64,000 bases of DNA from the NCBI GenBank assembly GCA_015345905.1, contig JADDTR010000009.1, forward strand, positions 682,001 through 746,000, given 5' to 3'. Each line of letters starts with the position of its first letter. The stretch's first letter is position 1. The DNA is from Aotearoamyces nothofagi. Its lineage: Eukaryota; Ascomycota; Leotiomycetes; Leotiales; Tympanidaceae. Of the stretch, positions 840 to 64,000 are shown piece by piece. Under the pieces are notes generated by a model. That model ran no database searches, was not told the origin of the DNA, and was given only the letters and a program-made list of their open reading frames with translations. Position numbers and translations under genes: made by a program.

Positions 840-3221
840 TCACAAAGCAGCATCCTCGGCGTCGAACTGGCTGGACCGAAGAGGCGTCCACAGCCACGGG
901 TACAGACTATTCAACTGCGTTTGCGGACTCTCCTCCGTCGGCTGCTGGAGGTGAATCTCATGCTCCATATCCAGAAAGCTGCCACAGAGCACACCGATAA
1001 CAGCCAGACACCTCTCGGCCGCCGGGTTCAGGTGCACCATATGCTGCAATGCGGTGGTGCTTTTGCGGATCTGCTCACGCCAGCCCAGGGCTGCAGCGGC
1101 TTGCGGGTCGTTGCGGAGACATATCACGGGGATCATGACGGCCTGGAAGATGAAATACAGCGCGTACCAGCACGCCAGCAGGGTCCTGTGCTGTGCGTGG
1201 CTCCAGAACGCCGTGACGAGATCGATGCTCTCGGCCGCCGCCGCCACGCAGCGCCGGACCGCCACATCGGGGACGGGGAGCCCGCGCGCGCCCTCGGCCG
1301 TGCGCGGCGCGGGTGTCAGGGAGCGCGATTCCAGAACCACGCGCTGGATCACGAAGGGCCGGTACATCAGGATACGGAAGTTGCGATAGCGCCACTGCAG
1401 CATGGCGTGGCTCAGCGCGAATTTCGGGAGCTGCGACGACGTCTCGCGGAAGTGGTGCGGGATTGTCTGGAGCCACTCGCCGAGACACGTGTCGTCAAGG
1501 GTGATGAGATCGCTGGCGGACGGGAAGGGCGCTGAGATTATGCGCGAGTAGATGCGGGAGGTGGCGAGGTGGAAGGTGGAGTGGTGGCGGAGGTGGGTGT
1601 AGGTTGTCGTCTGGTCGGATTCTTGAGGGATGTGACTTGTGGACGCGGTGAGGTCCTATTCTTGTGAGAAAGACGAGAGGGGAAAAGGGGTGGTGCTGGA
1701 CCTACGAAATCATGAATGTTGAGAGGCAGGCTCACTTCGATACCGCCTGTCGGGATATCCATGGGTCTGGAAAAGGTGATTGTGGCACCAGCATCAAAGA
1801 CAAAAAGACACCACCACGTCCGCCTCTTCTGCTCCATCTTCAACAGCGTCGTATCTGACGCGCCGAACTCCTTGTGCAGGCCAATACCCATCGCCATGCG
1901 TCTCGCAAGACCCAGGTAATTATACCCCGAATTCGGCTTGTTCCTCTTCTGCAGATAATTCGCCATCAAGGCCATCGCCTGGACGAGGATCAGACTCCCA
2001 GTCTCGAGCATGTCGACCGAGAATCTCTTCTTTGCTTCCGAGAAGAGGGCCACGTCGGTGTCGGTGGATTGCGTCGAGCCGCAGAAGGCCCCGAGGGCCG
2101 CTACGACGTACAGCAGCACGTGCCAGGCGCTGTCTGGAGGTCGGGGAATGACTTCCATGAATTGGGCGCGAAAGGTGGGCTCGTGGACTGTTGCGGAGTT
2201 AGCTAGGATGTATTGTTTCTTGAGATGCTGTTTACCCATCGGATAGGACACATGATAGGTTCGGAAATAGGCGTCGACGTAGTTGTCGAGCTGGATAGGA
2301 GAAGAGATTGAGCGGGAAAAAGACGAAGATCGGTCTGTTAATGGCGACCTTCTATGGATAGATGGGCCGAAGGGTCCGGTATCTGTCAAACGTAACAGTG
2401 CCGCCCCTGATGCGACTCCTATGCTTAATTAACCGCTGCTCATACTTTGGTAAGGTATTGGGATGCACCTAGATAGCCGCACTCATCGTTACTGCTGCTA
2501 AGACTAGCCATTCCATCAAGCACACTTTCTTCACCTGAGCCACCCACTCGTTCATCCCATTCAAAGAGTCCGTGAACAGGCGTTGACTCCAGAGATTGTA
2601 CAGTCCGTTTAGGTACGTTGGGACGCACATTCAGACATCTTCCATTGTATGATGACCACGAAGAACCCTGGCCATTTGGGTCTGATACATGAGTTGTTTC
2701 GGACTCTACTAAACTTTGATGAATAAGGGCATTCGAATTGATGGACGTTGTAAAATTTGATAGCTGAGGTACAGCTGCTCCCTCCTCTTGAGGTGAAATG
2801 GCGATGTGATTCTCGCCCTCATAGAAATCCTGCAAATCTCGACTTGAAGACTCCGGCAAAGATATCTGACATGATCGCGGTGACAGAATCTGTCCATCTA
2901 GACCTTGGGGACGGAGTCTCTGAATGAGCGCCTTTGCACGAGCCAGCTCTGCTTCGACCTCTGTCAAATGTCTAAGTACGAGAATTAGTCTCCATTACTG
3001 TAAAAGAATCTGTACAATCTATGCCTTCTAGTTAAGGGTGTTTTCCACTGTTTCTCATATAGACACTGTCTGCGATATCTTGAGCACTGGAGACAAGCTG
3101 GCAAGGCACGATTGCATCTCGACTTTCGTCGTTTGCATTCTGTGCAGACTTGTTCTGCTCTGGGGTCTGGGTTATCGGCCTCTCCTTCTTCATGCCTTTC
3201 TTCGCTCATTATGCGAGACAT
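840..3221 (-). CDS. Zn2Cys6 (Gal4-type) transcription factor
   Basis: This is a predicted nuclear regulator of about 733 residues. Exons are 3221-3016, 2971-2469, 2382-1706 and 1655-840, giving 2202 coding bases. The N-terminus carries the binuclear cluster CX2CX6CX5CX2CX6C, starting CTECKRRKSRC (about residues 25-52), followed by a linker and a short helical region beginning LTEVEAELARAKALIQRL, typical of a dimerisation element. The middle exon holds the fungal-specific regulatory domain (PF04082 type), with the GLHKEFGAS and RRTWWCLF signatures. The second intron joins in phase only from a GTGCAT donor (2468); the better-looking GTATGA donor at 2445 is out of phase, so that junction is the weak point. 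The gene diverges from the arabinitol dehydrogenase gene, so a role in sugar-alcohol use is possible but inferred only from position. Confidence 0.85.
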
Positions 3222-3934
3222 GAACGGACGTTTATTGAGTCTAGGGCGAGGATTGAAGGATTACAATTTATATCTTTTCTTTTACAGACTTTCTGGGGTG
3301 GATGGTGGGGTGCGGAGACTATCAGGTGACTTGTATAGGCGACCGCCTGGGGTTTTTTGGAGACTTGGAGTTGGCCTTTGGACGTCTGGAGACAAGGACA
3401 CCACGTCGATTCTCAAACTCGCCCTCCTGTTAAAGGGCGCATTGCGTAGCTGATCCGCTGAGAATTGTGTAAATAACCTCCGGGTTCAAGAGCTACGGGT
3501 TGTAGGTGAACAGGCCAGCGGCTTGGGAGTAGCTAGCAGTCCTCATCGCGACAGCACCGGCCTCGACAAGTACTTGTACAATACAATGCAAACAGAACCA
3601 CCACCAAAAGTCGAGTCCGAGTCCGAGTCCAGTGCCTCGGGGCCAACATGGGCCGTGAGAGTTTGCGGGGAACAAACAGGAAAACCTCATGCGACCCCGC
3701 ACTTTCCATTCCCCGCAGATCCGGGAATAGCATCGAGTCGGCCTGGGTCGGGAATGCCACGCCGGACGATCTCTAGCTCCAAGGAGCGCTCTTCCCCGAC
3801 GGCGGTGCTTCATCGCCGCCGCCGCCTCCCCGCCGCCTCGTCCTCCTCCACACCACCACTGCGGCTCCTGAACCTCAACTCCGGCGCTGCTACTCCGTGG
3901 AGCTGGCTATATACAGCATCCAAATCCTACGGCG

Positions 3935-4253: not shown

Positions 4254-5405
4254 ATGACGGCAGCGATAACGGCCTTGAAAGCCAATATTGGCGTATACAC
4301 GAACCCAGCTCATGACTTGTGGATTTCAGACGCCCTTCCAAAAGCCGAGAGTATCGAGAAAGGAGAATCACTATTGCCAGGAGAAGTCACCGTCGCCATC
4401 AAGAGCACTGGAATCTGCGGGTCTGTACCACCCATCCCCATCACCAGCCCAACGCACCTCACTAACTCGAACCTCAGATCTGATGTTCACTTCTGGCATG
4501 CCGGCTGTATCGGTCCTATGGTCGTAGAAGACAACCAGATCCTCGGCCACGAAAGCGCCGGCGTAGTTCTCGCAGCCCACCCGTCAGTGACGCACCTCCA
4601 GGTCGGCGACCGCGTCGCCATCGAGCCGGGCCTCATCTGCAACGCCTGCGAACCATGTCTCACCGGCCGCTACAATGGCTGCGAGAAGATGCAATTCATG
4701 TCCACGCCGCCGTTCCCCGGATTGCTGCGACGCTACGTCAATCACCCGGCGGTATGGTGCCATAAGATCGGCAACATGTCGTTTGAAGAGGGCGCCTTGC
4801 TCGAGCCGCTCAGTGTCTGTCTGGCGGCTATGGAACGAAGCGGTGTCAGGCTGGGCGATCCCGTGCTTGTCTGCGGTTCTGGGCCCATCGGCCTCACGGC
4901 CTTGCTGTGCTGCCGCGCAGCAGGTGCAGAGCCTATTGCAATTACTGATATCGACGAAGGGCGGCTGAAGATCGCAAAAGACCTCGTGCCTTCAGTCCGC
5001 ACCGTCAAAATCGAGCGTGCGTCGGCACAAGACACAGCGAAGGTGATCGTCAAAGCTCTAGATGGCGTCGAGCCTGCCGTGGCGATCGAATGCACCGGCG
5101 TGGAAAGCAGCATTGCATCTGCCGTCTGGGCGTCCAAGTTTGGCGGGAAGGTCTTTGTTATCGGCGTCGGGAAGAACGAGATACAGATTCCGTTCATGAG
5201 GTCGAGCACGCGGGAGATAGATCTACAGTTCCAGTACCGCTACTCGAATACGTGGCCGAGAGCTATCAGGCTGCTGCAGAGCGGTATCATTGATATGGGG
5301 AAGCTTGTCACGCACAGGTTCAAGTTGGAGGACGCGGTCAAGGCGTTCGAGACGGCTGCAAATCCGAAGACGGGGGCTGTCAAGGTGCAGATTAGGAATG
5401 ATTGA
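4254..5405 (+). CDS. ladA: L-arabinitol 4-dehydrogenase
   Basis: This NAD-dependent medium-chain zinc dehydrogenase oxidises L-arabinitol to L-xylulose in the fungal L-arabinose pathway (cytosol). The product is 364 residues once a 57-base intron (4421-4477) is removed. That intron is a multiple of three with no stop, so the unspliced frame stays open, but splicing restores the family motif [13 protein letters not shown]. Visible features are the catalytic zinc ligands (Cys in GICGSD, GHESAG), the four-cysteine structural zinc loop starting CNACEPC, the strongly LAD-like [12 protein letters not shown] segment, and the nucleotide-binding glycines in VCGSGPIGL. An acidic residue follows the second strand (ITDIDE), fitting NAD rather than NADP. 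The start fits the family N-terminus. The related xylitol and sorbitol dehydrogenases are less likely given the LAD-specific segments. Confidence 0.92.
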
Positions 5406-5898: not shown

Positions 5899-7334
5899 AT
5901 GGTGTATCCGGAGACTTTCACCGGCTATCAGATCGACGGCCCAGAGACGTGGACTACATTCCACAAACGAGAAGTAATCTATTGATCAAGACTCCCTGAC
6001 CTGGATTTCCTTCTAATAAATGCAGTTTCAACCCAAACCATTCGAAGACTACGATGTCGACGGTACGTATGCTCAAAAATATAATCTTTAAAACCCCCGT
6101 CTCGAGACCTATCCGGCCAGCTTCTCCGGCGATTAAGCCTACCTCACAACACGCATTCCTCTCCCAGCACCCGTCAATTTGCTAATCGCCTCCCAGTCAA
6201 GATCCAAGCCTGCGGGATCTGCGGCTCCGACATCCACACCATCACCGGCGGCTGGGGCCCCAAACGCTTCCCGCTCTGCGTCGGGCACGAGGTCGTCGGC
6301 GTCGCCCTGCGCGTCGGGCCCAGAGTGAGCCTCGTCCAGCCCGGACAGCGCGTCGGCGTCGGCGCGCAGGTCTATGCCTGTCTGCGGTGCAAGCAGTGCA
6401 AGGACGACAACGAGACGTACTGTCGGCACCAGGTCGATACGTACGGCGCCGTCTGGCCGGACAGCGGGATCGTCTCGCAGGGTGGCTATGCGAGCCACAT
6501 CCGCGCCCACGAGGTCGGTTTCGCCCCCCAACCCCAACCCTAACGTCTCTTGAAAAATAGGACGCCCTTTTCCTTTTCCCTTGCGCCTCTTGGCTTTGGC
6601 TGAGCGGTTTTGTAGCATTGGGTCTTCCCGATCCCCGACGCGCTCGCGACGAGCGAGGTGGCGCCGATGCTCTGCGCCGGCCTGACCGCCTACTCGCCCC
6701 TGGTGCGCAACGGGGCGCGCGGAGGCAAGAAAGTCGGCATCGTCGGGCTGGGCGGGATCGGGCACTTCGGCGCGCTCTTCTCCAAGGCGCTGGGGGCCGA
6801 GACGTGGGTGATATCGCGCTCGCGAGCGAAGGAGGCAGACGCGCTGCAGCTGGGGGCGGACGGGTTCATCGCGACGGAGGACGCGGACTGGAATGAGAAG
6901 CATCGCATGTCGTTCGACCTGATCGTCAATACGGCGAACAGCAGCGAGGGCTTCGATCTGGGCCGCTACTTGTCGCTCCTGGATGTCCACGGCAGGTGGA
7001 TCAGTGTCGGCTTGCCCGAGGGCCAGGGCCAGGAGGTCAAGAGCCACATGTTTATGGAGAATGGCTGCTTGATTGGGGCGAGCCATCTGGGGTCGAGGAA
7101 GGAGACTCTGGATATGCTGCAGCTTGCTGCGGATAAGGGCATCAAGAGCTGGGTCGAGGAGGTGCCGATTTCTGAAAAGGGGCTTGCGGATGCTGGTGAG
7201 TTTTTCCTTGCTGTCAACGCTTGTAGATGTCTGATTCGATGCTGATCCTGTGTCTGCATGTTCTAGTCATGAGGATGAAGAAGAATGATGTCAGGTATCG
7301 GTTTACTCTGACGGGATATGACGAGGTATTTTAG
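5899..7334 (+). CDS. Zinc alcohol dehydrogenase, cinnamyl/Adh6 type
   Basis: This is a medium-chain NADP(H)-dependent alcohol dehydrogenase, probably reducing aromatic or medium-chain aldehydes in the cytosol. Exons 5899-5973, 6026-6062, 6197-6513, 6616-7195 and 7267-7334 add to 1077 bases (358 residues). Motifs are KIQACGICGSDIHT with the catalytic Cys, GHEVVG, the structural zinc loop starting CLRCKQC, and the dinucleotide motif VGIVGLGGIGHFG. Tandem orientation behind ladA suggests, but does not prove, a shared sugar or aldehyde role. The second intron (134 nt) is long for this window. A basic residue after the second strand (ISRSRAK) fits NADP. Confidence 0.88.
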
Positions 7335-8148: not shown

Positions 8149-10152
8149 CTAATATGCAATACCCTCCTCGATCGCCTTGATCTGCAGCGCCACGAATCTC
8201 GAATAGATCCGGCAGAGCGCCAAGCTGCCGCCCATGAACCAGAAGCCGGGATGGCCGCTGGGTCGCCACATCTGCGCACGCGGGATCAGTGGTGATATTC
8301 CCAGGCGTCGCTGGGGGGGAACTTACGGTGTTGACCTCGCCCTCGTCGTCCAGGTCCCAGACGTCCCTGAGCCTGTCCGCCACCGCATCGCCAAAGATCT
8401 TCCTCGCGCTGGTGCGCATGTTATCGTAGCCCGTCGCCAGCACGACGACGTCGGCCTGGAGCCGGGAGCCGTCCGCCAGCACGAGGGCGTGGGGCTCGAA
8501 GTGCGAGACGCCGTGCGGGCTCTGCACGACGGCGATGTGGCCGTCGATGATCAGCTGGCTGCAGCCGACGTCGATGTAGTAGCCGCCGCCGCGCGTGATG
8601 TACTTGCGATAGATGCCGCTGCGGTCGCGGCCGAAGTCGACGCTGAAGCCGGCCGCCGCGAGGCCCTGCAGGCTGGCCGCCTCGGCGCCGGCGATGCGCG
8701 CGGTGAGGTCGACGTTGAGCGCGAACTGCACGGGGATGGGCAGGGACTGGCCCGCGATGTCGGCGTCTTCGATGGGCGGGCCGCTCTCGTCGTACATGCC
8801 CTCGTGGAGCATGAAGAGGCCTTTGGCGGCCGAGATGACATACGTGCCGCGCCGCTGCACCATGGTCACCGACGCCCCGTTCTCGTAGTAGTTCTGGGCG
8901 ATGTCGTGGCCCGAGTTGCCGGTGCCGATGACCACGACTTTCTTGCCCTTGGCGTCGCCGCTCAGGGAGGCATCTTGGTGGAAGCTGGCGTGGTGGGCGA
9001 GGCCTTGGAAGGAGGACTGTCCGGGGAAGGAGGGGATCTTGGCTTCTCCTGCGTGCCCGGTGGCTAGGACGACGTGTTTGGGGTGCAGAGTACGCACGCT
9101 GCCGTCTGAGCGGACGATTTCGGTGGTCCAGGTCTTGGTGCTGTCGTCGTAGGTGGTTGAGCCCTGCTTGGGGTAGGAGTTGGTCCAGACGTTAAGCTCC
9201 ATTAGAGAGGCGTACGCTTCGAACCAGTCGCCGAGTTTGTCTTTGGGAGTGAAAAGGGGCCAGTTGGCGGGGAATGGCATGTAGGCCATATGCGTGTACT
9301 GCACCGGGTCGTGTGTGACCAGCGTCTGACCATATCAGCAATGCTGTAGGTGATTCTGGAAACCGAACTCGACTTACTCTGTACCTGTTGCGCCAGTTAT
9401 CTCCGACTCTGTCATTCTTGTCGACAAGCAGTACAGGCACATCCAGAGCTTGCAGACGAGCTCCGAGATTGAGTCCAGACTGGCCTTTTATGAATTAGTC
9501 CATATCAAAGCAGCTGTTGATTCTCTGACGTACCAGCGCCGATGACGAGAACGGTAGGTTCTCCGTCCAGGAATTCAATCTGCCTCTGTCTCCTCTCGAG
9601 CCAGTTCCCGCTGATAGCACCACCAATCAAGGAATTGTTGCCGCCATGTGGTCGTCTCGACCAAGCCTTCTCTTCGAATCCCTTCAGTTCCTGCAGAGCA
9701 GTGTAGACAAAGCATCCTTTCCAGACGCCGTCCTGGCCCTGCACGAGCCTAATCATCCCCGACCCACGCCCGACCTTGGTCTCAAAGTCGAACTGGGACT
9801 CGACCCACTCCACGCCCTCGATCGGGCTTCCCAGAGTCGGCACAAACCTGCCCGTTTCCCGGAGCCGCAGGTTCTGGGGAGCGGCGAGGAGCAGGTTCTC
9901 GGAGAGGTAGCCGGACACCTTGTTCAGCCCGTGCAGAGTGCGGACATCCCATGAGATGGCGAACGCGTCCCGCCACCAGGAGTCCTGATGCAGCACGCGT
10001 CCGAGCCCGGCGATGTCGTTGCTCGTCAGTACGGATTCGAAGCTGGCAATCCATTGCTGGGCGATTGCAGCAGGAGAGGGTGCTGCCACCTGCGGCTTCG
10101 CAACAGCCTTTGGGAAGTGCGGGAGCTGGACTGTATGGCGTTCAGCAAGCAT
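8149..10152 (-). CDS. Flavin-dependent monooxygenase with NTF2-like N-terminus
   Basis: The product is a 615-residue oxidoreductase; exons are 10152-9534, 9484-9378, 9325-8327 and 8271-8149. Residues about 25-160 resemble an NTF2/SnoaL-like fold (SFESVLTSNDIAGL, then aromatic-rich strands). The rest is a class B flavin monooxygenase: FAD motif VIGAGQSGLNLG, NADPH motif VVIGTGNSGHDIAQ, and LATGYDN near the C-terminus. Relatives include YUCCA-type and other N- or S-oxygenating enzymes; the substrate is unknown. The NTF2-plus-FMO layout is known in fungi and is not an assembly error, because a single frame-consistent splice joins the halves. The upstream region carries one copy of the shared word GACATGGCCCGT (10361-10372), 209 bp before the ATG. 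Confidence 0.88.
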
Positions 10153-11201
10153 TGTGTGGGATTTAGATGAGGATGGGAAAATGCTATATGGAGAAAGTCG
10201 GAGAGCGAGGGAATGCTCTTATATAGCAAAATACGCCGTTTTTCTTAGACTTTATCACTCCTTCCACAGGTTAGAAGCACTGAATGTCGCCGTGTTATAC
10301 TCGCAACACGCTGTGGAGAAGCTGGAGAAGCTTGCACCGGCTGCTTGGCTGTTCGGCGGCGACATGGCCCGTTGATTTTGGGCAGAGATGGGCCGTCACT
10401 GTCATAGGCGGGGTGCGGGGTCGAGTCGTGTACTATATCCAGTGTATACTGAGTGTGTACCATATATTCCGTACTGTGTACACCGAACTATGCGCTCTGT
10501 TCTAGCCGCCTACCACGGCATACACCACCAGGAATCCCGCACAGCCGCACCGTATCACCATTCTCCCATTTAGGTTCTCCATTATCCGGACCACAGTCAC
10601 CCGCTGAGGATGCATAATCCGTGCCAAGAAAGCACGTTGCGTCAACTCTTCCCGTCTTATCTTGGCTACAGCGGACCAGAGCCGAAACTTCCAGCTTTGG
10701 GATTAGTCTTCTGCATCTGAGCAGACGCCGCCTGCTGGATGCTTCATAATCATGGAATGACGGCTCTTGTGTTCGGGATACTGGATTAGGAAATCCGTTT
10801 GCGGCGCCGGTCCGCTGAGAGATCGTAAGCAACTTTGAATGTTATCGCTGCATTTGATATACCAGATTGACATCACTTTCACATCGCTGCCAGTCTCAAA
10901 TCCGAGTTGACACAAACATTCTTTTGGCCTTGCGAAGATATAATTCTATCGCTGCTCCCTGGGTGGACTTCGAGTTGAACCACTTGGAGATGGTACGCGA
11001 GAAGTCATTCCGATATCAATTTTGGGAGAATGGACACTTTGCGCATTCCTGTGAGGAGACTCTTTGACAAGATTCAATCCGTAGCTATTAAGCAATTCAA
11101 GCAAAAGTCGCCATAAACCCGGCTTCATTCAAGCCGTCATAGCCTGCTAGGTCGGGACCTCCTCTTCCCTTACGCCCGCTCCAGCCCTCATCCCAACCCA
11201 A
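10153..11201. other. Intergenic region with one copy of the shared 12-bp word
   Basis: This is the upstream region of the flavin monooxygenase and the downstream region of the sugar porter. It contains GACATGGCCCGT at 10361. The open frames here (such as 10488-10832 minus) have no family features and look accidental. Confidence 0.5.
10361..10372 (+). promoter_or_regulatory. Shared 12-bp word, copy 1
   Basis: GACATGGCCCGT lies 209 bp upstream of the flavin monooxygenase ATG. The same word recurs at 13454, 13589 and, inverted, at 14284. It is a candidate site for the Zn2Cys6 regulator at 14291; that link is inferred. Confidence 0.5.
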
Positions 11202-13113
11202 CTATTCCGAACGACCAGTACCACTATCCTCCATATGTTCAATATGAACCGGATAACCCTTAATACTTAAATCAGACTTATCCCTCGCAGTAACCCGTCT
11301 CTGTTCCGCTTCCATCGCCTCCTCGGGACGCGCCGTCGATCTCGCAATCTTGTCACTGAAAGGTATGATCGTCTTGTGGCCCGAATCAACGTCAAAGTAT
11401 TCGTCAAGATCCTCTAATGTCCGGTTGGCCGTCTCTGGGTACAGGAACCAGACGATTGGCACGAAGAGGAGGTTAAATGCTGCAAAGACTAGTGGATGTC
11501 AGTTGTGGAGAGGTAGAGTTGGAGGAACAAGACTCACTAATGTAGAAACGATAGCCAATGTTCTTGATGCCAGTTGGTGTGAATTGGGTGCAGACGAAAC
11601 CGAAGAGCTGCAGGCTGTCAGGACTTTCCTAGCATCTTCTAGAGTAAGCACTTCAACTTACCCAGTTTGTTGCAGTTGCAGCAGATGCACCTCTCGTCCT
11701 CATTGCAAGAGAGTTGACTTCGGCTTGATATACCCACGGCACCATTCCCCATGTACATCCGAAGGCGGCATAGTAGAAGAAGAGAAAGGTAATAGCTACC
11801 GCACCCCACTAATAACAGTCAGTAAAATATCCAAGAATAGAGTCGTGCTTTATCACTCCATACCTCGCTAGGTGCTCTCGTCAATAGTGCGACGGCAATA
11901 GCAACCATCACGTATGCCAAACATTGTAGTCCCAGTCCAGTCAGCATAAGTGATCTACGACCGAAATTCTCAATCATCCAAAAGCAGAGTCCGGACGATA
12001 TCATATAAGAAGTTGCATTGCAGCCGGTCAGGATCCTAGCCAAGAGCTCGGTAAGGCCCAGGTTCTCGGTGAGAATAATGGGGAAATAATAGTTTAGAGC
12101 GTTGATGCCGCCGAATTGTTGCATGAATTGGCCACCACAGCCAAGTAACAGTCGCTTGAGGTGTCTCGAGCGGTCTCGGCATAGAATGACTTCCTTAAAT
12201 GTGATGGCAGATTTACGTTCGATGTTGTAAGATTCCTGGATTGATCTCAGCTCGAGCAACACGGCCGGGTCGTCGGATGCTAGGTCTTCTCCCAGATAGC
12301 GACGCAGGGCTTCTTGGGCTTCCTCGACTTTGTCATGCATGATGAGCCAGCGAGGAGATTCGGGGACGAATTGCAGCAAAAATAGCAATGCTGCTGCAGG
12401 AACCAGCTGCACGGAATGTTAGCTGGCAGATGGCTTGGCAAGCGGTGAAATGATTACCTGGAGAGCAAGAGGAAGTCTCCATTGGATTCCGTTCTTTGCG
12501 AATGAACAGCCTAGGGTGAGCCAGCTAGCAAGACAGTAGAAGACGACGTTGTGAAGGACAACTATCACAGACAGCTTTCCTCTTCGTGGTCCTCTACACG
12601 ACTCTGCTTGGAAAACACCGCATGTAGAACTCGTCATTCCTATCATCGCCGTGGTCAGGAATCTGTGGTGTCGCACATGCAGGGATTCTCACCGTTTCCA
12701 AACCCATTTATCACTCGACCAACAATAAACTGAGGGAATGTCGTTGCGGAGAACTGCAGTATAGCGCCAATTGCAGAAATAATTGCTCCCGTTCTCAAGG
12801 TATTCTTACGGCCCAGGCGGTCGCCGAAGATAGCCGCCAGCAGACAGCCACCAAGATTTCCAAGCTTGTCCTGTGGTCAGCGGGATCTCTTGTACTTGTA
12901 CATCTCATCGGAGAAGCTCACAGAGAAGCAGCTCGCGGTTATGCCCTGGATATCAGAATCTTTGGTCTGCGGAAACGTGTTTATGAAATCCTGCCCGATA
13001 AGGATTCCGGATATCACCCCTTGATCGTACCCGTACCAAGCCTGTGCGGCAGCATTGGCCGCAGTGAGGATAATCTCAAGCGAGGGCCCGCTGAACCTGT
13101 CTGCGAGGCCCAT
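11202..13113 (-). CDS. MFS sugar porter
   Basis: This plasma-membrane sugar/proton symporter has 529 residues and probably 12 membrane helices. Exons are 13113-12922, 12870-12693, 12639-12458, 12406-11864, 11808-11662, 11607-11538 and 11479-11202, all in phase. Family signatures are YGYDQGVISGIL in helix 1, GDRLGRKNTL after helix 2, PESPRWL in the central loop, QQFGGINALNYY in helix 7, ENFGRRSL after helix 8, and PETANRTLEDLDEYF at the C-terminus. The substrate (hexose, disaccharide or polyol) cannot be read from the sequence. Two copies of the shared 12-bp word lie 341 and 476 bp upstream of the ATG, in the region shared with the divergent regulator. Confidence 0.92.
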
Positions 13114-13453
13114 AACGGCAGGCGGGAATAAGAATAGAGAATATGCAGATATTGTGTGGCCTCGGTGTATGTTTATGGGAAGAGCAACTTAGAAGACGAA
13201 AAGTCAGAAGGAGAGAAGCCGCTGATATCGGCATTATATATACCTTGGGGACTTGGACTGTAGGAGATATGAAGTACGGGGTATGGGGTATTCTCCACAC
13301 CCCGCAATGGTAAGGTTTATAATCTTGCAGCAACCTGACAGGGCGTGGTGCGCTATACAAGCATATGAAAGGATGGATTAGGTCGTGATTTAGCTTCATG
13401 TTGCATTTAGAATTCTGTTAACTGGATGAGAATGCGGAACTTGGCTCGCTGCT

Positions 13454-13465
13454 GACATGGCCCGT
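13454..13465 (+). promoter_or_regulatory. Shared 12-bp word, copy 2
   Basis: This is an exact GACATGGCCCGT, 341 bp upstream of the sugar porter ATG. Confidence 0.5.
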
Positions 13466-13588
13466 AAAAGGAGGTTGGCTGTGCGGGCTGTTACGTCCCA
13501 GAGTCACCTTGGAATAGTGGTATAGAGGGGGGAAAGGGCTAGCTGAGTCGGTGGGCGACTATCAAGGCGTCGCCGACAACACGGAATC

Positions 13589-13600
13589 GACATGGCCCGT
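13589..13600 (+). promoter_or_regulatory. Shared 12-bp word, copy 3
   Basis: This is an exact GACATGGCCCGT, 476 bp upstream of the sugar porter ATG. It overlaps the first unit of a 16-bp tandem duplication. Confidence 0.5.
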
Positions 13601-13623
13601 ATCCACGATGGTCCGTATCCACG
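13592..13623 (+). repeat. 16-bp tandem duplication
   Basis: ATGGCCCGTATCCACG is followed directly by ATGGTCCGTATCCACG, with one mismatch. The duplication extends part of the shared 12-bp word. Confidence 0.8.
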
Positions 13624-13800
13624 GCGGCTTAATAGCTGGATATCACTGTTAGAGGCGCCGATGTCTGTCTGGGTGTCGACAGATGACGTCAACTGGCGGC
13701 TTGGGACGAGCGGACCTCGAAAGCGATGTTCGACTGTCCGGCGGCACCAGAGCGTAGTTCTACCAAGACCGACAGGAGTCATTATATCCCTATTTACCTG

Positions 13801-13836
13801 ATATACCTGATATACTTCATATACTTCATATACTTC
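13801..13836 (+). repeat. 9-bp tandem repeat, four copies
   Basis: The units are ATATACCTG followed by three ATATACTTC. The array is AT-rich and lies upstream of the regulator gene. Confidence 0.8.
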
Positions 13837-14283
13837 GGTATCATTGAGTCGCGCCTGGAGTCAATGGGTGCCACCGACGGGGATGTGCTGGAGTATGCGA
13901 ACTCCAGGAAACTGTCTCCCGCCCCGACAATCGTATCCCCGCCACCCCGCACTCCATTGACCCGGATCTGCGCCGACGACATACTCGACTCCATACTCGA
14001 GCACATACCCCAGATACGCTCCCCGCCTTTTGCGCCGCCGGGCCCTGATGGTCCCAAGTCGCTGCTAGCAAGACCACAAGTCATGTCGTATCTGCACTGT
14101 CAGCATGTATTCGTATATCCCATAATCATATCGACAATATTAGAATCGAACCGAGGGCTCTGCTCATTAAACCAGATATGGACCGAAGTAAAGTCGTGTA
14201 AGTCTGTCCTGATTCTCGCCGTCGTTGCATTTAGTTGATACTCTGGGTGGGGTGAGCTCTTCGATTGCATGTCCCAGACGCTG

Positions 14284-14295
14284 ACGGGCCATGTC
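14284..14295 (-). promoter_or_regulatory. Shared 12-bp word, copy 4, over the regulator start codon
   Basis: ACGGGCCATGTC on the plus strand is the exact reverse complement of GACATGGCCCGT. The ATG inside it (14291-14293) is the start codon of the Zn2Cys6 gene. A factor bound here would sit on its own gene's start or early transcript region, suggesting autoregulation (inferred). Confidence 0.45.
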
Positions 14296-16376
14296 AAGCT
14301 GTTCCCTTTGCCGGCAGAGAAAGGTGAAATGTGATCGTCAAAAGCCCAGTTGTGGATTCTGCATAGAGATCGGTCGCATTTGCCAATACGTATCTTCTGA
14401 AAAGAAAAGGGGCCTGCGCGCTGGCTATGTCTCGGCATTGGAACGCCGTCTAGGTATGAGCATCAACCCGCCTGCCAGCTCCGATGCATCTTTCAACTTA
14501 CTCGGAATAGACAAGCTGGAACAGGAGGTTGTTGCCCTGAAATCCCAGCGGCATCGTATGTATCTAGACCTTCGGCGATGATGCTGCTGGTACTGACTCC
14601 TAGTAGAGCCTGAATATGTAGATGTCAATTTGCCAGTACCACCGACGCCGTCGGACCATGACGGGACGTTTGAAACTGCTTCGCCATCATCACAGCATAG
14701 TCGGATGGCCGCTACTTCTGATCACGGAGCACTATCTCAACAAACATTGAGCGACCTCTGTGATACGTGGTTTGAACGATACCATCCTTGGTTTCCTATC
14801 TTACACAAGATCTCTTTGCTCCAAGAGGTCAAGAACAATACAGCGCCGTTAATCGATTCACCCCTCAGTATCGTTCTAAAAGCTATTATAGCTATAACTA
14901 TTCCTCATTGGTGCCTCTCAAACCCGCTGAGTCGAGAGCAACGTCTCGAGCTCTCAAAGCAGTTTAGAAATGAAGTTATTATGCAAGCCATTGGTAACTT
15001 GTCCCTTCAGTCGTTACAGGCGATTCTCATCATCACCAACATCGAATACGGAGCTGGAAAGCTCTCGGAGTTCTTCAATCTTCTTGCGTTATGCAAAAGG
15101 TCAGCATCCTGTTTGAAATACTCGCATGACTTCTATACTCAAGTGATGGCCTAGGATGGGCATCCAGCTCGGGTTACGAGATCTCGTGATCAACAATTGC
15201 GACAACTTTAATAGACTCTCGACTCTACCACCTCGAATGCTCTCACTTCCAACTACTCTAATCGAACAAGAAGAGCGCATCCGAGCATACTGGATGACCG
15301 AAGTCCTCGACAGCATGTCTTCTCTAGGTGCCGGTTGGAATCTCGGTCTCTCCCGACCAGCTGACGAAGCATGGTTCCCGTGCAACGAAACCATATGGGC
15401 CTTCCCCGAGAACGCAAAGGCCTTTTCCTCCTTCGGCGACTCGGAGGTCTCGTCAGCCTTCTCATTATATTTGACTCTTGTCACGCGCCAACTGTATCAA
15501 GTTCACCTATTCCTGCAACAGCCATTCGATATGACGTCTGCTGTAGACAGACTCCGATGGCAGGAGCAATGCACCACTGTTGATGAGTCGTTGAGGCACT
15601 GGCGGAGCTCGGCGGCCACGATGCACATATTAAGTCAGACGAATATGGCATCTGATTCGACTTTGGTGATGATTAATGTGACTTTTGACACGTAAGGCTC
15701 CTTCTCTGCGTATGGTAATTAGACAAGAGTTTTGATTAGAGAGGCAGTGCAATTGTTGCTCTATACCAGAGACTAGCGTTGCCGCCTGGAGGTCTCGGAG
15801 AGGTTCACGGTCCTTGGTATCATGCCATACAACGATGCTTGAGCGCTTGCGACGATATGAGCACCGTAGTGAGAGCGAGCAGTGATGCCGAGCTTGAGAA
15901 TATCAGTCCCTATATGATCTTCTGCATATTCATAGCCGCAAGATTCTATCTCGGTAGCGTGCTCCGTCGAGTTGTACAGTTATAAATCACTAATATGTGC
16001 ATAGTTCATGCGAAGATCCTGTCCGTCGAGGTCCCTCGAAACCTCGACTTGCTTGTTTATGGGCTGAAGACGTGTGGTCAGAGATGGTCCTTTGCTCGTA
16101 AGTCTATCAGCACTAGCATGCAATCGACAAATTGTTGACACCACCACCGGCCGTCTTGAAAGGGTCTTGTGCACTGCTATGGCAGAGAAAAGGGTACCGA
16201 TAGCGCTATCATCACTACCGCCACAGTTCTACGATTTGCAATACTCGTCGCTGGATATCGATGACGCTCTTCGCTTATGGACCGATCGTCTGGATCCCGA
16301 CTATCATATCCCAAGTTTCAGTCCCGTTGGAAGCTCGCCGCAGGATAGAGAAGGACCGGATGTTGCTAGCTGTTAG
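14291..16376 (+). CDS. Zn2Cys6 transcription factor
   Basis: This predicted nuclear regulator starts directly with the cluster: MSSCSLCRQRKVKCDRQKPS, then CGFC and CQYV, followed by the linker KRGLRAGYVSALERRL. Exons that fit in phase are 14291-14555, 14604-15099, 15155-15691, 15740-15953 and 16001-16097. The middle exons form the fungal-specific domain (SLSDLCDTWFERYHPWFPIL-like opening; AYWMTEVLDSMSS; AWFPCNE), with a VPRNLDLLVYGLKTCGQRWS segment near the end. The last join is unresolved: the final open frame (to 16376) can be reached in phase only through an implausible 19-base intron from 16098, so either a less obvious intron or a frame error lies near 16098-16163. It diverges from the sugar porter and is the likely local regulator of that gene and of the flavin monooxygenase. 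Confidence 0.82.
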
Positions 16377-63168: not shown

Positions 63169-64000
63169 TTAATCCTGTACCTCTTTGATTGGTCCAACGT
63201 AAGTTTCTTTCCCATACCATAACCAAGCAATGCCGCTAACGATAATTGTCCCACCGTAGACGACGCAAGTGTAATTCATGTTCAAAGCCGTGACTGGAAC
63301 CGTGGACGGGAAGAACATCCATATGGAGATGAACATGCTGTAGAATATTGAGAACAGGTTGATTGGCATTCCCCAAGCGCCAAGCTTCCAAGGCCCAAAT
63401 GGTATTTCCTGTCGAGAGAAGCGCCGCATGACGAGCAATACCACAGGAAGTAGATATGAAGTATATAGAGCGACGGTTGCTAGGCCCGTGATGGCATAGA
63501 ATGCTGCGGTTGAGGCAACGTTAATAAGCCCGAGAATGAGGAGGAGAATGGTTGTAAGAATGATAGATCGAACTGGGATTGCACGGCTGTTGTGGACCTG
63601 TGATTCTCATGTTAGCGATGATGAGTGATTCAGGGACTGATGATATGAAAGTGCTGAATTACGTGTGATAAGTACTGTGAATATGGGAGGCCATTATCGC
63701 GCGCAAACGCCCAAGTGATGCGAGATGCTGCAGCAAGGAGGCCCCAGGTAGATGTTATTGCCGACACTACAAGGCCCGCAATCATAAGAGTTGCTGCAGT
63801 CTTCGAGCCTGTGGCTTGATAGAGTATTTCAATAATTGGGTACCCGGTTTTAGTTCCTAGAGCAGCGTACAGATCACCCATGCTAAAGAGGAGAGCTATT
63901 AGGAAACCAAAGCCGAGTGCACCGTTAAGGACTATGCTTGTGACCATGGACCGTGGCACGACTGTTGCTGCGTGCTCAATTTCTTCGCCTATGTTAAACA
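63169..64000 (-). CDS. Amino-acid/choline permease (APC family), partial
   Basis: This is the C-terminal part of a plasma-membrane permease; the gene runs off the right edge. Exons visible are 64000-63663 and 63597-63169. Upstream frame reads EEIEHAATVVPRSMVTSIVL, the typical APC helix 6 region, followed by GYPIIEILYQATGSKTAATL, STWGLLAAASRITWAFARDN and the final helices ending YVGPIKEVQD. The choice between GABA, choline or amino-acid permease cannot be made from this part. The intron (63662-63598, 65 nt) separates QYLSH from VHNSRAIPV, a common fungal position. Confidence 0.9.

Follow-up and report, generated by a model that had tools for sequence, protein, structure and literature searches.

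Gene content of the locus

The window, that is, the whole 64-kb stretch of DNA analyzed, is fungal to judge by its introns and Zn2Cys6 genes, and it contains a gene neighborhood ordered from left to right as TF2 (-), an L-arabinitol 4-dehydrogenase homolog (+), an Adh6-type gene (+), a monooxygenase (-), a porter (-), and TF1 (+). Gene boundaries and splices were built by hand, and for TF2, the porter, and the Adh6-type gene library tests covered parts of the gene only. TF1 (14291–16376, +; exons modeled to 15692) encodes a Zn2Cys6 regulator with Zn_clus and Fungal_trans domains. Its zinc cluster begins at residue 3 (Pfam E 7.7e-10) and is closest to that of Gal4 among solved structures (E 3.2e-7). 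The regulator gene lies beside its candidate targets: the porter adjoins TF1, and the monooxygenase adjoins the porter.

The porter (11202–13113, -) belongs to the MFS sugar porters, as judged from a Sugar_tr match on one exon fragment, for which GLUT and XylE are the best solved matches. TF2, a second Zn2Cys6 regulator (840–3221, -), carries Zn_clus at 3060–3221 and Fungal_trans at 1541–2428; it was taken as one unspliced gene with its ATG at 3221 or 3209 and an approximate 3′ end. The L-arabinitol 4-dehydrogenase homolog (4254–5405, +) matches 3m6i over residues 5–362 (632 bits). The neighboring Adh6/cinnamyl-alcohol-dehydrogenase type reductase (5899–7334, +) was library-tested over 6616–7242, and its ends were set by eye.

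The monooxygenase (8149–10152, -) is of the flavin-dependent type II and was assembled from four hand-placed exons into a protein of 615 amino acids, with 8ACS as its best solved match (420 bits). A 92-amino acid stretch of it shows up to 66% identity to bacterial proteins among the best 80 of at least 266 relatives, which could reflect either an old horizontal transfer or strong conservation. In genome contigs, a first scan for monooxygenase relatives returned none from eight pattern matches; with the 92-amino acid fragment as query, the best 80 of at least 266 relatives were all titled as bacteria, with no fungal locus among them. Viral contigs yielded no relatives of either TF1 or the monooxygenase fragment.

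A 12-bp word in two intergenic regions

The word GACATGGCCCGT occurs in four exact copies in the window, on the (+) strand at 10361–10372 (site A), 13454–13465 (site B), and 13589–13600 (site C), and on the (-) strand at 14284–14295 (site D), each at the position given in the initial annotation. In the orientation of the nearest gene, each copy spells ACGGGCCATGTC, which places A, B, and C on the (-) strand and D on the (+) strand. Site A is 209 bp upstream of the monooxygenase start codon, B and C are 341 and 476 bp upstream of that of the porter (C also ∼700 bp from that of TF1), and D contains the start codon of TF1. The copies had been described as lying upstream of genes in three promoters. 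Because B, C, and D share the one divergent region between porter and TF1 (about 1.2 kb), the regulatory regions number two and not three.

The analytic expectation for a 12-mer in the window is 0.0076 copies, in agreement with the ∼0.008 estimated before, and none of 100 dinucleotide shuffles contained a single copy of GACATGGCCCGT. Sixteen distinct 12-mers reach four or more copies in the window; seven of these are simple, eight stem from 5-base tandem repeats near 35.5–36 kb, and the last is GACATGGCCCGT. Under a stricter simplicity filter, GACATGGCCCGT is the sole 12-mer with at least four copies in the 64 kb. We compared this count with order-3 and order-5 Markov simulations (150 each), a null that allows for the post hoc choice of the word. 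Simulated windows held on average 0.013 (order 3, largest 2) and 0.007 (order 5, largest 1) non-simple 12-mers with at least four copies, against one in the real window, so the earlier judgment that chance is an unlikely source stands.

Could the copies nevertheless be accidental, or remnants of small duplications? A true 16-bp tandem duplication does exist beside site C (see below), and chance alone yields 12-mers with at least three copies, at a mean of 1.4–2.3 per simulated window. Four-copy 12-mers, however, almost never appear in the null models, and the 40-nt flanks of the exact copies share only 3–14 of 40 positions in pairwise comparison (random mean 10.0, 99th percentile 17). The flanks are thus no closer than random stretches, as had been noted, and the exact copies are not merely copied segments. 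We therefore hold an origin by chance or duplication to be hardly credible. Relaxed matching speaks against the word: sites with up to two mismatches number eight in the window including the four exact ones, which is no clear excess over shuffles (4.7 ± 2.4; 13 of 100 shuffles reach eight).

A looser core and its placement

Near-copies beside the exact sites suggest that the fifth base of the word is free, which reduces it to the core ACGGNCCAT. Site A2 (ACGGCCCATCTC, 10385–10396, -) lies 24 bp from A. Site C2 (ACGGACCATCGT, 13605–13616, -) lies within the 16-bp tandem duplication with C (13592–13623) and is for that reason not independent of it. Site E (ACGGCCCATGTT, 3645–3656, -) separates the divergently oriented genes for TF2 and the L-arabinitol dehydrogenase homolog. 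No copy is present in the Adh6-type promoter, which counts against a site shared by the whole neighborhood.

The core matches eight times in the window, and seven matches fall in promoters of the cluster neighborhood (3648, 10364, 10388, 13457, 13592, 13608, and 14284), the eighth lying outside them at 63946. The cluster promoter set comprises 3,272 bases, or 5.1% of the window. Among 26,840 gapped words of the same shape, ACGGNCCAT is the most promoter-enriched (binomial 7e-9; next best 7e-6), and multiplication by the number of words tried gives about 2e-4. Neither the core nor the promoter set was fixed before the data had been seen, and the first stretch of the set starts at 3214, though the TF2 ATG may be 3209 or 3221; these probabilities are therefore only indicative. 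Four of the seven promoter matches are the founding exact copies, and 13608 is the tandem duplicate of 13592, so that 10388 and 3648 constitute the independent support for the core. Two of the four two-mismatch sites in the window also fall in cluster promoters (0.015).

The core combines a CGG triplet with CCAT, a mirror-like second half one base away, and is usually followed by GTC. All eight matches are asymmetric, none having the symmetric form ACGGNCCGT or ATGGNCCAT, in contrast to what would be expected of a plain homodimer site. Given this lack of symmetric forms, CCAT is probably recognized as a second half in its own right.

One may ask whether the word acts as an RNA or translation signal, through start-codon context or upstream ORFs, and not as a DNA site. 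In the orientation of the nearest gene, each of the four exact copies includes GCCATGTC, and in one case this is a real start codon. Yet A2 and C2 retain ACGGNCCAT and lose the ATG, which is thus apparently not the element that is kept; copies extend up to 492 bp from an ATG, where they would be unlikely to lie within the mRNA; and the window has no Rfam match at gathering scores. An RNA-level role thus appears very improbable.

The copy at the TF1 start codon

The start codon of TF1 (14291–14293) lies inside the inverted copy D, just as the initial annotation had it. An in-frame TGA (14282–14284) stands directly upstream, inspection by eye found no AG splice acceptor between this TGA and the ATG, and the Zn2Cys6 domain begins at residue 3; together, these features make the assignment of the start codon nearly certain. 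The part of D that precedes the ATG is noncoding, and protein coding therefore does not explain the word at this position.

Because D spans the TF1 ATG exactly, bound TF1 might cover its own start codon and block transcription or initiation, which would create negative feedback. We regard this as a tentative possibility, and a doubtful one. Equally, D might act as a downstream activating site, might serve the divergent porter, or might be an older site whose ATG was later taken over as the start, and an out-of-frame upstream ATG at 14269 offers an alternative way to tune translation. Opening a frame of 21 codons (14269–14334) that runs across the start of TF1, this ATG may tune TF1 translation; its context is weak by the start-context rule.

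Two further features were observed in the divergent region between porter and TF1. The first is a possible gene, a 124-codon open frame (13864–14235) that includes an ATG but has no Pfam match, and from which no convincing in-frame splice into TF1 was seen by eye. Its codon score of -0.08 lies within the off-frame range, but the TF1 exons themselves score -0.07 to -0.15, so that the score is neutral as to coding. The second, midway along the region (13784–13836), is an AT-rich 9-bp tandem repeat that is perhaps TATA-like.

Known binding patterns in the cluster promoters

We scanned the cluster promoters for binding patterns of known fungal regulators. Except for UaY, GliZ, and AflR, the patterns come from published papers available as excerpts. 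The PrnA, CGGNCCG, PDR-1, GaaR, CLR-1, XlnR, UaY, and GliZ patterns had no match in the cluster promoters. RhaR (1, with 1.1 expected), LeuB (1, with 1.1), NirA (1, with 0.7), and AflR (2, with 2.3) were at expectation, and AmyR/InuR reached 6 versus 3.5. Sites of the RhaR/PDR-1 type were not enriched, with 1 of 22 window matches for CGG-N11-CCG (1.12 expected) and 0 of 2 for TCGG-N11-CCGA (0.10 expected). The symmetric CCGG-N-CCGG of the PrnA type, CCGGNCCGG, was tried as a candidate and rejected, as it occurs once in the window and not in the cluster promoters. Likewise, none of nine window matches to CGGNCCG falls there; this pattern equals motif M18 of a survey of Fusarium promoters, for which the excerpt at hand gives no function (PMC2853525). 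Among the full Zn2Cys6 sites scanned, none was clearly enriched in the cluster promoters.

Enrichment was found for words of the CreA type. SYGGRG, described as the CreA site in the accessible part of PMC5795998, has 29 of its 261 window matches in cluster promoters (13.3 expected), and GCGGGG has 10 of 25 (1.3 expected), which would fit a predicted glucose repression of the cluster genes. The word ACCCCGCA/TGCGGGGT, which contains GCGGGG, lies in the monooxygenase promoter (10414–10421, -) and recurs at 3694, 13299, and 13944; all four of its window copies are in cluster promoters. The AlcR half-site TGCGG is likewise overrepresented (16 of 134, 6.9 expected), and other factors may therefore act at these promoters; as TGCGG overlaps many CreA-type words (e.g. 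TGCGGGG), the two signals are indistinguishable here. A separate word, GGGGTGCGG/CCGCACCCC, was observed at 3307, 5742, 10410, and 11799, with three of its four window copies upstream of the TF2/dehydrogenase, Adh6-type, and monooxygenase genes.

In the open-access literature, spellings of the word and its core gave a sole match, on an unrelated calcium-channel topic, a search too narrow in scope to imply that the site is unpublished. The combination of monooxygenase, sugar transporter, and Zn2Cys6 gave no match there, which likewise does not imply unpublished status.

A putative regulon

Taken together, the word is probably the DNA site of a pathway-specific Zn2Cys6 regulator, most likely TF1, that would control the porter, the monooxygenase, and TF1 itself. 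The observations proper are the sequence of the word, its placement and statistics, and the families of the adjacent genes. From them we infer protein binding to the word, TF1 as the bound protein, and the role of an inducible upstream activating site that is subject to glucose repression of the CreA type. The small regulon proposed at the outset is well supported as a shared regulon by the non-random word, by the placement of seven of eight core matches in promoters, and by the gene contents. The word is shared among cluster promoters beyond chance and contains the CGG that is usual for Zn2Cys6 sites. TF1 is a plausible candidate for its binder. Autoregulation of TF1 is plausible as well, by analogy to precedents in the Zn2Cys6 family and from the sites upstream of and at its start.

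The word might instead be regulatory and be read by TF2 or by a regulator encoded elsewhere. TF2 is also of the Zn2Cys6 type, lies in the same neighborhood, and has the near-copy E in its upstream region; moreover, two cooperating Zn2Cys6 regulators per cluster are known from Yna1/Yna2 (PMC4559421, in the portion available). However, three of the four exact copies lie in the TF1/porter region and none near TF2, and we consider a binder other than TF1 unlikely.

The cluster would probably be one of glucose-repressed sugar or polyol genes. An inducer derived from a sugar, a polyol, or a related compound would activate TF1 (or TF2) at the sites, and the active regulator would switch on the porter and the monooxygenase. 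TF1 would also regulate its own gene, and TF2 and the L-arabinitol dehydrogenase homolog are perhaps under the same regulator. By way of the copy on its start codon, TF1 might limit or tune its own expression, which is a guess.

The findings provide a concrete candidate site for an uncharacterized fungal regulator and a probable small regulon for sugar or polyol catabolism, which may join an L-arabinitol dehydrogenase homolog with a type II flavin (Baeyer–Villiger-capable) monooxygenase. Should the start-codon copy prove functional, it would represent an unusual operator, one set within the first codon of the regulator's own gene. In its most far-reaching form, the proposal holds that ACGGNCCAT(G)TC is an asymmetric site of a new kind read by TF1, and that TF1 governs its own expression by occupying its start codon, in a so far undescribed cluster for polyol/ketone catabolism. 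We judge this full combination to be distinctly improbable; if true, one 12-base stretch would be operator, translation-start context, and first codon of its own binder at once.

Comparison with known systems

The monooxygenase resembles JsFMO (8ACS), a type II FMO that is its best solved match over residues 35–613 and differs in being bacterial (PMC10028610, as excerpted). Among regulators, PDR-1 of Neurospora crassa and RhaR of Aspergillus are likewise Zn2Cys6 regulators of sugar catabolism. According to the accessible part of PMC5469009, their regulon contains an L-arabinitol dehydrogenase, and in N. crassa putative sites precede pdr-1 itself as well as a consecutively numbered series of catabolic genes. 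Their site, TCGG-N11-CCGA, is different, with neither of its two window matches in cluster promoters.

Yna1/Yna2 of Hansenula polymorpha, which act on nitrate, offer a parallel in having two Zn2Cys6 genes per cluster and an asymmetric CGG site, and positive autoregulation is proposed for them in the excerpted text (PMC4559421). Their site, CGGAGAATA, and their pathway are unlike those of the window.

PrnA of the proline cluster of Aspergillus nidulans is a cluster-specific Zn2Cys6 regulator with several intergenic sites within its cluster, and it binds CCGG-N-CCGG inverted repeats with half-sites one base apart (PMC5983819, in the part available). The one-base spacing of the site described here resembles this arrangement, whereas its second half is CCAT and not CCGG, and the pathway genes differ. 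The layout of the cluster is of a familiar kind, whereas the site itself is unfamiliar, with one copy placed oddly on the start codon of the regulator.
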